A DNA stretch of 64,000 bases from Haladaptatus sp. QDMS2 (GTDB lineage Archaea; Halobacteriota; Halobacteria; Halobacteriales; Halococcaceae): positions 124,001-188,000 of the forward strand of contig NZ_CP119791.1 in NCBI RefSeq assembly GCF_029338295.1. The letters are read 5' to 3'. The translations under genes were made by a program, and so were the position numbers. The notes under the pieces are model-generated. The model saw nothing but the letters and a program-made list of their open reading frames with translations. It made no database searches and was not told the origin of the DNA. Below are positions 50,236 to 53,912 of the stretch, piece after piece. Each line of letters begins with the position of its first letter. Position 1 is the first letter of the stretch.

Positions 50236-51540
50236 ATGTACGACCGCATCAAGGGCTTTCGGGACTTCTATCCCGACGAGATGCAGGCCTATCGCGCCAC
50301 CTTCGACACGCTCGAAGCCACGGCGCAGGGCTACGGCTTTCGTGAAATCGGCACCCCGGCACTCGAACGCACGCAGATGTACGTGGACAAGTCCGGCGAG
50401 GAAATCGTCGAGGAACTCTACAGCTTCGAAGACAAGGGCGGCCGTGACATCGCGCTCACCCCCGAACTGACGCCGACCGTCGCGCGGATGGTCGTCGCCA
50501 AACAGCAGGAACTCGCGAAGCCAATCAAATGGTTCTCGACCCGGCCGTTCTGGCGCTACGAGCAGGTCCAGCAGGGTCGCTTCCGCGAGTTCTACCAGAC
50601 CAACATCGACATCTTTGGCTCCGCGGAACCGGAGGCCGACGCAGAGGTCATCGCCACCGCCGCGGACGCGCTCACCAACCTCGGCCTCGAAAACGAGGAC
50701 TTCGAGTTCCGCGTCTCCCACCGCGACATCCTCGGCGGCCTGCTCGAATCGTTCGACACGGACGTTGACACCGAAGAAGCCATCCGCACGGTGGACAAGA
50801 GCGACAAAATCAGCCACGCCGAGTACATGGACCTCCTCGTCGCCGCTGGCCTCACCCGTGAACAGGCCGAGCAGTTCGACGACCTGCTCGCGGTCGACCC
50901 GGACGAACTGGACGACCTCATCGAGTTCGCCGGAACCGACCGCGTCGAGGAAGCCGTCACGAACCTCCAGAACGTCCTCGACGCCGCAGAAGACTTCGGC
51001 GCACGCCAGTACTGCACGCTCTCGCTCGAAACCGCCCGCGGCCTCGACTACTACACGGGCGTCGTCTTCGAGTGCTTCGACTCGACGGGCGAGGTCAGCC
51101 GTGCCGTCTTCGGCGGCGGGCGCTACGACGACCTCATCGAAGGCTTCGGCGGCCAGTCAACGCCCGCCGTCGGGTTCGCCGTCGGTGACGCCACGCTCTC
51201 GCTCCTGCTCCAGCGCGCCGGTGTCTGGCCGGACGAGGAACTCTCGACGGACTATTACATCCTGCAAGTCGGCGACACCCGCAAAGAGGCCGCCCGAATC
51301 GCCCGCGGCCTCCGCGAGCGGGGCCACGTCGTCGAATCCGACGTGTCCGGGCGCAGTTTCGGCGCACAGATGGGCTACGCCGACTCCATCAACGCGGAGA
51401 CCGTCGTCATCGTCGGCGAACAGGACCTCGCGAACGACGAGGTCACGCTGAAGGACATGAAATCCGGCGACCAGGTGCAGGTCCCAGTAGATGGGTTTCC
51501 TGAGGAGTACGACCGACCGACGGTCGCCGACTTCGAATAA
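50236..51540 (+). CDS. hisS: Histidyl-tRNA synthetase
   Basis: 434 residues from MYDRIKGFRDFYPDEMQAY. Class II motif 1 is in the N-terminal helix, motif 2 contains LTPELTPTVARMV and the WRYEQVQQGRFREFYQ block, motif 3 is in GGGRYDDLIEGFGGQSTPAVGFAVG, and it has a C-terminal anticodon domain. It charges tRNA-His. In many haloarchaea truA follows; here proS intervenes. Confidence 0.96.
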   Translation: MYDRIKGFRDFYPDEMQAYRATFDTLEATAQGYGFREIGTPALERTQMYVDKSGEEIVEELYSFEDKGGRDIALTPELTPTVARMVVAKQQELAKPIKWFSTRPFWRYEQVQQGRFREFYQTNIDIFGSAEPEADAEVIATAADALTNLGLENEDFEFRVSHRDILGGLLESFDTDVDTEEAIRTVDKSDKISHAEYMDLLVAAGLTREQAEQFDDLLAVDPDELDDLIEFAGTDRVEEAVTNLQNVLDAAEDFGARQYCTLSLETARGLDYYTGVVFECFDSTGEVSRAVFGGGRYDDLIEGFGGQSTPAVGFAVGDATLSLLLQRAGVWPDEELSTDYYILQVGDTRKEAARIARGLRERGHVVESDVSGRSFGAQMGYADSINAETVVIVGEQDLANDEVTLKDMKSGDQVQVPVDGFPEEYDRPTVADFE

Positions 51541-51607
51541 CTCTCTCTGTCGTTCTCGCGGTTAGAAATCGACAGACAGCGGGCGTTCGCTGGAACAGCC
51601 ACCACGA

Positions 51608-51618
51608 ACATTTATGTA
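51608..51618 (+). promoter_or_regulatory. TATA-like box of the proS leader
   Basis: CATTTATGTAG centred near 51613. Typical archaeal spacing would put the transcription start near 51639, a few bases before the upstream ORF ATG at 51643 and about 135 nt before the proS start. Confidence 0.45.
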
Positions 51619-51642
51619 GGGAAGCGAAGAAGTCTCAGTCAC

Positions 51643-51729
51643 ATGTGTCGAACTGAACACACAGTGACGCTCAACCGTGAGCCCGGCGCGGCTCACGGCT
51701 GGGTTCCGCGAAAGCTGCATCGACGCTGA
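51643..51729 (+). CDS. Upstream ORF (28 residues) in the proS leader
   Basis: It encodes MCRTEHTVTLNREPGAAHGW then VPRKLHRR, ending with a TGA at 51727-51729, 44 bp before the proS GTG. The TATA-like box puts the ATG at leaderless distance. The middle contains a stable hairpin, GTGAGCC/GGCTCAC (about 51678-51697), so translation of the uORF and folding could compete. Prolines occur twice. Its reality rests on position and promoter spacing alone. Confidence 0.45.
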   Translation: MCRTEHTVTLNREPGAAHGWVPRKLHRR

Positions 51730-51773
51730 TTCTACCGTAGTCTTGACTGTACACACGCCCGCATTCGAGCGGA

Positions 51774-53051
51774 GTGGCGACGCTCTCGGAGGTGAGTCCC
51801 GTGCGTCGGAGTAAGACACTCCTCTTCACGCGTAGAGACACTGACACCCGTGAGTGGGACAACGAGACGGTGCAACTCACACTCCGCGCTGGCCTCGTCC
51901 GGCAGTTCGGTGGCGGCCTGTACGGATTTACGCCTACCGGAGAACGAGTTCGCCAGCACCTCATCGACCGCATCCACGCGGCGATGACGGCAATTGGCGG
52001 ACAGGCCATCTCACTGCCCCAACTCCAGTACCGAGACATCTGGGAGCGAAGCGGGCGCTGGGCGAACTTCGAGGACGAGATGTTCACGCTCCAGAACCGC
52101 GACGGGCAGGACATGTGCCTTGCACCTTCGCACGAGGAAGGTGTCGTCCACCTCTGTGAGGGGTTCGTCAGGTCGTACGAGGACCTGCCCCTGCTCCTCT
52201 ATCAGATTTCGACCAAGCACCGGGACGACCACCCCCGAAACGGCCTGCTTCGGACGAAGGAGTTCACGATGAAGGACGCCTACAGCCTCCATGCCTCCCA
52301 CGAGTCACTCGACGAGTGGTATGACCGCGTGCAGGCGGCCTACTGCTCGCTGTTCGAGGGCCTCGGCATCGATTTCGTCGTCGCCAGTGCCGACAACAGC
52401 GTGATGGGCGGGAACGATTCAGAGGAGTTCATCGCGCCTGTCGAGTCAGGAACCGTCGAACTCGTCTACTGTGAGACGACCGACTGTCGCTTCGGAATCA
52501 CCGACGAATCTCCCCGGAACGACCTGACTGCTGGCAATTCGTGCCCTACCTGTGGGAACGAACTCATCGAGGGCGAAGGCATCGAAATCGGCCACGTGTT
52601 CAAACTGGGCACCCGCTACGCAGACGCGATGGATTTCACCATCGACGTGGCAAACGGGTCGAAGCAGTCGGTCGTCATGGGGAGCTATGGCATCGGCGTG
52701 GAGCGCCTCATCCACACGCTCCTCGCCCAGCGCAGCGACGAGGCTGGTTGTCGGTGGCCCGCTGAGACAATGGCTCCCTACGCTGTCTCGATAATCCCCC
52801 TCCAATACGAGGGAGAAATTCGAGAGGCCGCAGACCGGTTGCACGAGGAGTTGGGAGTCTCGGACACAATCCTGTTCGACGACGACCGGCAGTCCATCGG
52901 CGAGCGATTCACCGAGAGCGACCTACTTGGGATTCCCCTGAAGGTGGTCCTTGGAAACCACTTCCTCGAAACTGGGGAGGTCGAACTCGAAACGCGTGAC
53001 GGTGACAAAGCGTTCGTCGAACTCGACGAGGTGACGGGGCTCCGTGGGTAA
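51774..53051 (+). CDS. proS: Bacterial-type prolyl-tRNA synthetase lacking the INS editing domain
   Basis: 425 residues (GTG start; a GTG six codons later is also possible). Bacterial-type ProRS features: TLRAGLVRQFGGGLYGFTPTG, the SHEE loop (119-122), motif 2 RTKEFTMKDAYS (160-171) and motif 3 GSYGIGVERL (303-312), then the anticodon domain. The ~180-residue INS editing domain of bacterial ProRS is replaced by a short Cys-containing segment (C233, C238, C257, C260) before GIEIGHVFKLG. Standard haloarchaea use archaeal-type ProRS, so this looks like an acquired paralogue. It may be for resistance or special tRNA use. Confidence 0.85.
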   Translation: MATLSEVSPVRRSKTLLFTRRDTDTREWDNETVQLTLRAGLVRQFGGGLYGFTPTGERVRQHLIDRIHAAMTAIGGQAISLPQLQYRDIWERSGRWANFEDEMFTLQNRDGQDMCLAPSHEEGVVHLCEGFVRSYEDLPLLLYQISTKHRDDHPRNGLLRTKEFTMKDAYSLHASHESLDEWYDRVQAAYCSLFEGLGIDFVVASADNSVMGGNDSEEFIAPVESGTVELVYCETTDCRFGITDESPRNDLTAGNSCPTCGNELIEGEGIEIGHVFKLGTRYADAMDFTIDVANGSKQSVVMGSYGIGVERLIHTLLAQRSDEAGCRWPAETMAPYAVSIIPLQYEGEIREAADRLHEELGVSDTILFDDDRQSIGERFTESDLLGIPLKVVLGNHFLETGEVELETRDGDKAFVELDEVTGLRG

Positions 53052-53105
53052 CGCTCGCTCGTCGAAACTGACACGCTTTTACTTTTCTCGCCCAATGTGC
53101 GAGCA

Positions 53106-53912
53106 ATGCGCGCGTTCCGGGTGGCCTACGACGGCAAGCAATACAGAGGCTTCCAGCGCCAGCCACACGGACAGACGGTCGAAGACACGATTATCGAGAG
53201 CCTCCGAAAAATCGGGGCGTTCCCTGAAGACGACCCACTCCCACCGCAGTTCACAGCCTCGGGGCGGACCGATAAGGGCGTCTCTGCGCTCGGCCAGACG
53301 GTCGCGCTCGAGTGTCCCGACTGGCTCACACCACGGGCGTTCAACGGCGAGTTGCCGGGATCGATTCGAGCGTGGGCGATGGCCAAAGCGCCCGAGGGCT
53401 TTCACGCTACCCACCACGCCAAACGCCGCCACTACACCTACCACCTCTATGAGCCGGTGGTGAGCCGCGAGGACGTCGCTGCGGTGCTCGACTCGCTCTC
53501 TGGAACCCACGACTACCACAACTTCACGCCCGATTCTCGCAACACAGAGCGCGTCGTGGACGCCGCCGTTTCCCGGGACGGGAACTACCTCGTCTTCGAG
53601 ATATCCTCGGACGGGTTTCCCCGTCATTTCGTCCGACGATTCGTCTCGCTGGCGCACGAAGTCGTGACGGGACGGCGACCGCGGTCGTTCGTCGACCGAG
53701 CACTTTCAGACGAGGTGCTGTCGGGTGGTGACGGCCTCCGCCCCGCGCCGCCCGAACCACTCGTGTTGCGCCACGTCGAGTATCCTCAGTTCGACTTTTC
53801 GGTAGACGAGGAGGCGCGAGAGAGTGCCTACCGTGTGTTTTCCGAGCGGTCGCGGTACCATCAGACGGCAACGCGGGTTGCAGACCAACTCCGCCACGGC
53901 ATGGATGGCTAG
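53106..53912 (+). CDS. truA: tRNA pseudouridine synthase A
   Basis: 268 residues from MRAFRVAYDGKQYRGFQRQ. The catalytic Asp is in ASGRTDKGVSALGQ, and a conserved GTHDYHNFTP and VRRFVSLAHEVVTG follow. It modifies U38-40 of tRNAs. A TATA-like CTTTTACTTTTC is at about 53076-53087, so it has its own promoter separate from proS. Confidence 0.94.
   Translation: MRAFRVAYDGKQYRGFQRQPHGQTVEDTIIESLRKIGAFPEDDPLPPQFTASGRTDKGVSALGQTVALECPDWLTPRAFNGELPGSIRAWAMAKAPEGFHATHHAKRRHYTYHLYEPVVSREDVAAVLDSLSGTHDYHNFTPDSRNTERVVDAAVSRDGNYLVFEISSDGFPRHFVRRFVSLAHEVVTGRRPRSFVDRALSDEVLSGGDGLRPAPPEPLVLRHVEYPQFDFSVDEEARESAYRVFSERSRYHQTATRVADQLRHGMDG

Follow-up and report, generated by a model that had tools for sequence, protein, structure and literature searches.

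We propose that proS2, a second prolyl-tRNA synthetase gene in a haloarchaeon, is preceded by a regulatory leader-peptide cassette that accompanies this auxiliary bacterial-type enzyme, and in which the ribosome senses decoding of the proline codon CCG. We regard this reading as likely, although the transcript start, translation, stalling and output that it involves are inferred. The window, that is, the whole stretch of 64,000 nucleotides that was analysed, is haloarchaeal (Haladaptatus sp. QDMS2, G000:C1:124001-188000). In it proS2 sits between hisS (50236-51540) and truA (53097-53912); unless noted otherwise, all features described below are on the forward (+) strand. The layout of a leader-peptide attenuator had been suggested here by a sequence-only reading. 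It is supported by conservation of the upstream ORF (uORF), stem and proline codon, by the codon usage of proS2, and by uORFs carrying Trp or Phe codons elsewhere. As far as sequence comparison can establish them, the parts are a conserved uORF, a stem, an invariant CCG, a TTYT element, a Shine-Dalgarno (SD) sequence and codon avoidance in the gene.

The product of proS2 (51801-53051, 416 aa) is a bacterial-type prolyl-tRNA synthetase (ProRS), an assignment based on family models and structural homologues. It scores 366.9 bits against TIGR00409 (cut-off 306.7), contains the class II core (PF00587) and the anticodon-binding domain (PF03129), and has bacterial ProRSs as its structural homologues. 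It lacks the INS editing domain, and because this insertion is absent it misses the PRK09194 equivalog cut-off (558). The most likely start codon is GTG at 51801, since the residues MRRS align with the N-terminus of bacterial ProRS and relatives have the same start and SD core. The SD sequence itself, GGAGGTGA, lies at 51788-51795, and an SD core is found no more than 16 nt from the proS2 start in 34/36 cases. With this start the distance between the uORF and proS2 is 71 nt, not 44 bp as had been claimed.

A standard archaeal ProRS is encoded elsewhere in the same genome; no tRNA-Pro gene was found within the window. Of the 391 haloarchaeal species of the class that were sampled, 36 carry proS2, and in the window's own family only 1 of 18 does, so its spread is patchy. 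All but two of the 36 also have the archaeal ProRS. In these two (G018 and G024), whose genomes are ~99% complete, proS2 is the sole ProRS found; it is therefore probably capable of a housekeeping role, and the bacterial-type enzyme seems to have taken over from the archaeal one. The neighbours of proS2 vary by genus (hisS/truA, an EF-1-alpha-like gene, an aldolase, transporters), so that genomic context gives no functional hint. An EF-1-alpha-like elongation factor gene adjoins proS2 both in Haloferax (L011-L013) and in an unrelated Haloarculaceae MAG (L023). In Haladaptatus halobius (L026) the proS2 frame stops after 67 codons and the leader is intact; the likely cause is a frameshift, either in the gene or in the assembly.

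The leader was visible by eye upstream of proS2 already in the first relatives. We built a covariance model on its 44-nt core and searched it over 391 genomes. At E < 1e-5 there were 30 matches, each immediately ahead of proS2 except in one genome, where a deleted remnant of the gene follows; this is well outside what chance would give. At that locus (L124, G192:C47 ~131921) the leader, the SD and the first proS2 codons are kept and the body of the gene is deleted, leaving a leader fossil. The pattern GGCNNGGGTTCCGCGA, run over the same 391 genomes, is one base longer than the proper GGCNGGG...; it served as a background control only, and the covariance model was used instead. Counting matches at E < 1e-5, weaker but well-placed matches and one leader read by eye, the leader precedes proS2 in 33 of 36 species; Haloferax larsenii and H. 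elongans are among the natural carriers. On the tree, it is ancestral in haloarchaeal proS2 and was lost in two clades. One of the clades that lost it holds the two species without the main ProRS, and another leaderless clade retains the main ProRS. Both the leader and the avoidance of CCG have been lost at the proS2 loci of those two species (L135 and L136). No Rfam family matches the leader, and cmscan of 51400-52000 gave no T-box match up to E 10; the leader is not a T-box. Absence of the uORF from relatives that keep proS had been set beforehand as a refuting test, and the uORF turned out to be conserved across several haloarchaeal families, together with its frame, the position of its start codon, the stem and one Pro codon.

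Sequence checks bore out both the TATA-like promoter element (CATTTATGTAG, 51608-51618) and the 28-codon ORF (MCRTEHTVTLNREPGAAHGWVPRKLHRR, 51643-51729) that had been described. The transcript start is predicted at ~51638-51643, at the uORF start codon. We derived uORF statistics from 36 tabulated leaders; the start codons of L026, L027 and L101 were re-assigned before later analyses. The frame from the start to CCG is free of stops in 36/36; of the two alternative frames, one is interrupted by stops in 16 leaders and the other in 11. The first ATG shares the uORF frame in 34/36 leaders and lies outside it in none; the remaining two start with GTG. The TATA-like box usually lies ~30-34 nt ahead of the uORF start. 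Conservation of frame, start and promoter spacing shows selection on coding, translation and co-transcription being inferred only. Given this spacing, from which the transcript start is inferred, the uORF is probably leaderless. Since 72% of H. volcanii transcripts are leaderless (PMC4983044), leaderless translation is the natural reading for it. Near the end of the uORF are the Val-Pro codons GTT-CCG (51703-51708), each present in 36/36 leaders, and no position of the six ever varies. The two proline codons that had been noted in the window's uORF are both there; the conserved one is CCG at 51706-51708 (36/36), the proposed sensor codon, and the other, a CCC in the stem, is a Ser codon in most relatives.

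The decisive evidence is codon choice in proS2 itself. Prolines in leader-bearing proS2 genes are encoded by CCC (89%), CCT (6%), CCG (3%, 15/444) and CCA (< 2%), and the window's proS2 has 12 proline codons with no CCG and no CCA. By comparison, the CCG share is 50% (345/695) in neighbouring genes (Fisher p ~2e-72) and 42% (53/127) in leaderless proS2 genes (Fisher p ~4e-26). These p-values assume independent codons though the genes are related, and a better control is provided by the leaderless relatives. The divergence in codon choice is 0.32 for Pro and no more than 0.055 for every other amino acid. The total proline content of leader-bearing proS2 is also lower, at 3.1% vs 4.9%, and in the window's genome the housekeeping proS shows normal CCG use (14/25). 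One exception is the leaderless proS2 of L023, which likewise avoids CCG. Ser shows the second largest codon shift in leader-bearing proS2, a mild one (AGC 44% vs 22% in neighbours; TCG 22% vs 39%). The leader carries the very codon that its gene avoids, which gives indirect support to an expression response to aminoacyl-tRNA that is itself inferred. As a general feature of haloarchaeal tRNA sets, CCC/CCT and CCG are served by different tRNA-Pro species. According to established theory on the selective charging of isoacceptors, reportedly set out by Elf and colleagues in 2003, the codon most sensitive to starvation belongs in a sensor and the least sensitive one in the gene to be rescued; sensor codon against avoided codon makes a natural test of that theory.

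Comparable uORFs precede two other synthetase genes. Published dRNA-seq of H. volcanii lists uORFs in the mapped 5’-UTRs of tryptophan--tRNA ligase (23 aa) and pheS (26 aa) (PMC4983044, Table 2). The uORFs listed there span 15-31 aa with mapped starts and do not include proS2; that study makes no mention of attenuation or leader peptides, and concluded that haloarchaea do not typically use control by structured leaders. We found that the auxiliary trpS of Haloferax and relatives has upstream uORFs such as MVSTSRATCWRWRSTWEVDSIAV, with the residues WRW, and that the TrpRS proteins behind these uORFs are nearly free of Trp (4 in 9175 residues, 24 proteins). An inverted repeat, CCACTTCC/GGAAGTGG, surrounds the Trp codons of the Haloferax trpS2 uORF. 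Across haloarchaea pheS is preceded by uORFs ending in GFGFFF, a textbook Phe leader peptide that has apparently not been described as such; Haloferax pheS has a uORF with a Phe-rich end in 14/14 cases. In a class-wide pheS sample, 19/30 meet a strict Phe-run criterion and several others have F-rich ends. The genome of the window has both kinds, outside the window and on the minus strand: a pheS uORF, MATEPTPVLTGDDSLRTAGFGFFRF (G000:C1:2515900-2518400, L242), and an auxiliary trpS2 uORF with WRW, MESAFDWRWPGSRADSFACAGVAA (G000:C1:2582900-2585600, L243). The masses of our uORFs differ from those in the published table because the sequences come from other species, and equivalence with the published uORFs rests on gene and length. 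We lean, with less assurance than for proS2 alone, towards a general and undescribed ribosome-mediated leader-peptide attenuation of ProRS2, TrpRS2 and PheRS in haloarchaea, with leaderless uORFs and, for the auxiliary enzymes, coding made proof against starvation, in which the starvation-sensitive codon sits in the sensor and the gene avoids that codon or amino acid.

The uORF peptide has the consensus M..T....R[GE]SxxA[RH]G[WR]VP, in which the N-terminal half varies freely and the C-terminus, [RE]-S-x-x-A-[RH]-G-[WR]-V-P, is conserved. GTT is a rare codon, accounting for ~7-8% of the valines of proS2 and the genes around it, yet every leader has it just ahead of the sensor. A plain codon sensor neither requires nor explains how strongly GTT and RGSxxARG are conserved; a contribution of the nascent chain to stalling is possible. 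It could be that the peptide alone is responsible, as in TnaC or ErmC, with ...RGSxxARG[WR]VP(R) stalling the ribosome near its end on a small molecule (for example, one directed at ProRS or the ribosome) instead of on uncharged tRNA-Pro. This would suit a peptide whose conservation extends past the Pro codon, near the stop codon, and in which W and R alternate while V-P is fixed. However, it leaves unexplained both the specific avoidance of CCG and CCA in proS2 and the cognate Trp and Phe codons in the uORFs of trpS2 and pheS, and the residues within the stem follow base pairing (E/G, H/R/P). We consider such an arrest unlikely.

A GC-rich stem had been noted inside the uORF as 7 bp long. It is there, ahead of CCG, but the perfect stem, P1, is 9 bp and consists of CCGTGAGCC (51675-51683) and GGCTCACGG (51690-51698). 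Across 33 distinct cores (297 cells), 97% of the pairs are standard and 23 cells have changed on both sides; 0/500 shuffles reach either value. Residues coded within P1 vary to suit the pairing. G-U pairs are common and A-C occurs once, indicating an RNA stem of the + strand, unlike a DNA palindrome. Such strong covariation might suggest that the RNA itself is the sensor, with P1 or the loop CGG-CTGGGTT-CCG, which contains GGG, imitating tRNA-Pro and being bound by ProRS2 or a ligand, as in thrS, and the uORF being incidental; the loop does resemble a Pro anticodon in most leaders. The GGG is missing from Halobacterium-type leaders, however, and an incidental uORF would account neither for its conserved frame, start codon and promoter spacing nor for the codon avoidance, and we find this autoregulation quite improbable. 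We give still less weight to the idea that the uORF product acts in trans as a micropeptide with a separate function. The peptide is conserved, but the leader is always in cis to proS2 and never stands alone at E < 1e-5, the N-terminal half is free to vary, and several residues are dictated by the stem. Weakest is a DNA operator (a transcription factor palindrome) or chance similarity, which the inverted repeat near the promoter might recall and which, already disfavoured by the conserved reading frame, can hardly be reconciled with the many G-U pairs and single A-C of strand-specific RNA pairing.

A possible alternative helix, P2, would pair CGCGG (51687-51691) with 51706-51710, which includes the CCG, and would exclude P1. 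In 33 leaders 86% of its cells are paired, with 4 two-sided changes, and 18/500 shuffles reach its covariation score; the evidence looked suggestive in the first 17 leaders and was weaker in the 33, and we treat P2 as suggestive only. Past the uORF, TTYT occurs within 45 nt in 33/36 leaders, compared to 4.7 expected by shuffling. In the window this is the TTCT at 51730-51733, part of a conserved (C)TGNTTYT element and a candidate termination or pause site. The leaders contain no classical terminator: a strong T-run is lacking, as is a hairpin immediately ahead of one. Single-sequence folds of the leaders showed no conserved pairing of the SD. Four other candidates were rejected. Sequestration of the SD by the P1 3’ arm (GGCTCAC with GTGAGTC after the SD) is possible in the window and in L031 but is lost where the arm reads CCCGCGG, and so does not hold in general. 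T-box-like UGGU/ACCA pairing at a CTGGTT element failed as its GG is not conserved, and a mimic of the tRNA-Pro anticodon in the loop failed as the GGG is gone in Halobacterium-type leaders. In some clades GTTCCGCG could pair with a CGCGAAC further downstream, but without covariation.

Under the leader-peptide reading, the mRNA would begin at or beside the uORF ATG, judging from the TATA spacing, so that a ribosome would load at the 5’ end immediately. It would then read through P1 and, after ~20 codons, arrive at GTT-CCG close to the uORF's end, a path whose conservation is observed and whose translation is inferred. With the CCG-reading Pro-tRNA charged, the ribosome would complete the uORF and depart, and proS2 expression would be low. 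If this tRNA were uncharged, through proline shortage or because the main archaeal ProRS was failing or inhibited, the ribosome would stall at CCG and proS2 would be turned on. A ribosome stalled with CCG in its A site is predicted to cover the P1 3’ arm and the stretch ahead of the T-rich TTYT element, and could thus block termination there. The proS2 message should stay readable during the stall, since CCC and CCT, which would use a different tRNA-Pro isoacceptor, account for 95% of its prolines. The output we infer is that premature termination near TTYT, either intrinsic or aCPSF1/FttA-dependent, would be prevented. In archaea, transcription terminates either intrinsically at U-stretches or through the action of aCPSF1/FttA (PMC8116511), and promoter-proximal recruitment of aCPSF1 correlates with low output (PMC8448881). 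We favour a transcriptional output over translational control at the proS2 SD, but the data do not separate the two and translational control, as the sequence-only reading had it, is not excluded. Against an attenuator stands the fact that just one Pro codon is conserved, runs of codons being usual in bacterial leaders.

In the open-access literature, to which our search was limited, leader-peptide control of an archaeal synthetase did not turn up, and a 2021 study described promoter recruitment as the only known target of archaeal transcription regulation (PMC8448881). If the conserved leader-peptide switch is real, archaea too link gene expression to where the ribosome stands, using a transcription and termination machinery that differs from that of bacteria. 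The proS2 leader is a small, movable cassette that makes archaeal transcription-translation coupling testable.

On this reading the proS2 leader works like a bacterial leader-peptide attenuator; we do not claim membership of that class, as translation, stalling and output are inferred. Bacterial synthetase genes under such control include gamma-proteobacterial pheST, Streptomyces leuS and S. avermitilis trpS2 (PMC1262725). They share with proS2 a short uORF with one or more cognate codons and an mRNA hairpin before the synthetase gene, and the enzyme controlled by the Streptomyces trpS2 attenuator is probably auxiliary too. Unlike them, the proS2 leader has an archaeal host and transcription machinery, a probably leaderless uORF, and a single invariant codon in place of a run. 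It also has no terminator made of a GC-hairpin and U-run, its stem lies within the uORF before the sensor codon, and its gene avoids that codon. As proposed for proS2, T-box riboswitches sense tRNA charging to control a synthetase gene, but the proS2 leader has no Rfam match, conserved specifier loop or UGGN bulge, and sensing would be by the ribosome. In tnaC-type leaders, factor-dependent termination is under leader control. Rho is not known to operate in archaea; here too, a ribosome that pauses as it nears the end of its short uORF could protect the RNA from a termination factor, possibly aCPSF1/FttA, although the proposed effector is uncharged tRNA and that of tnaC is a free amino acid. 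Within haloarchaea themselves, the uORFs listed for long H. volcanii 5’-UTRs (PMC4983044) resemble the proS2 leader in being short and in standing before tryptophan--tRNA ligase and pheS.
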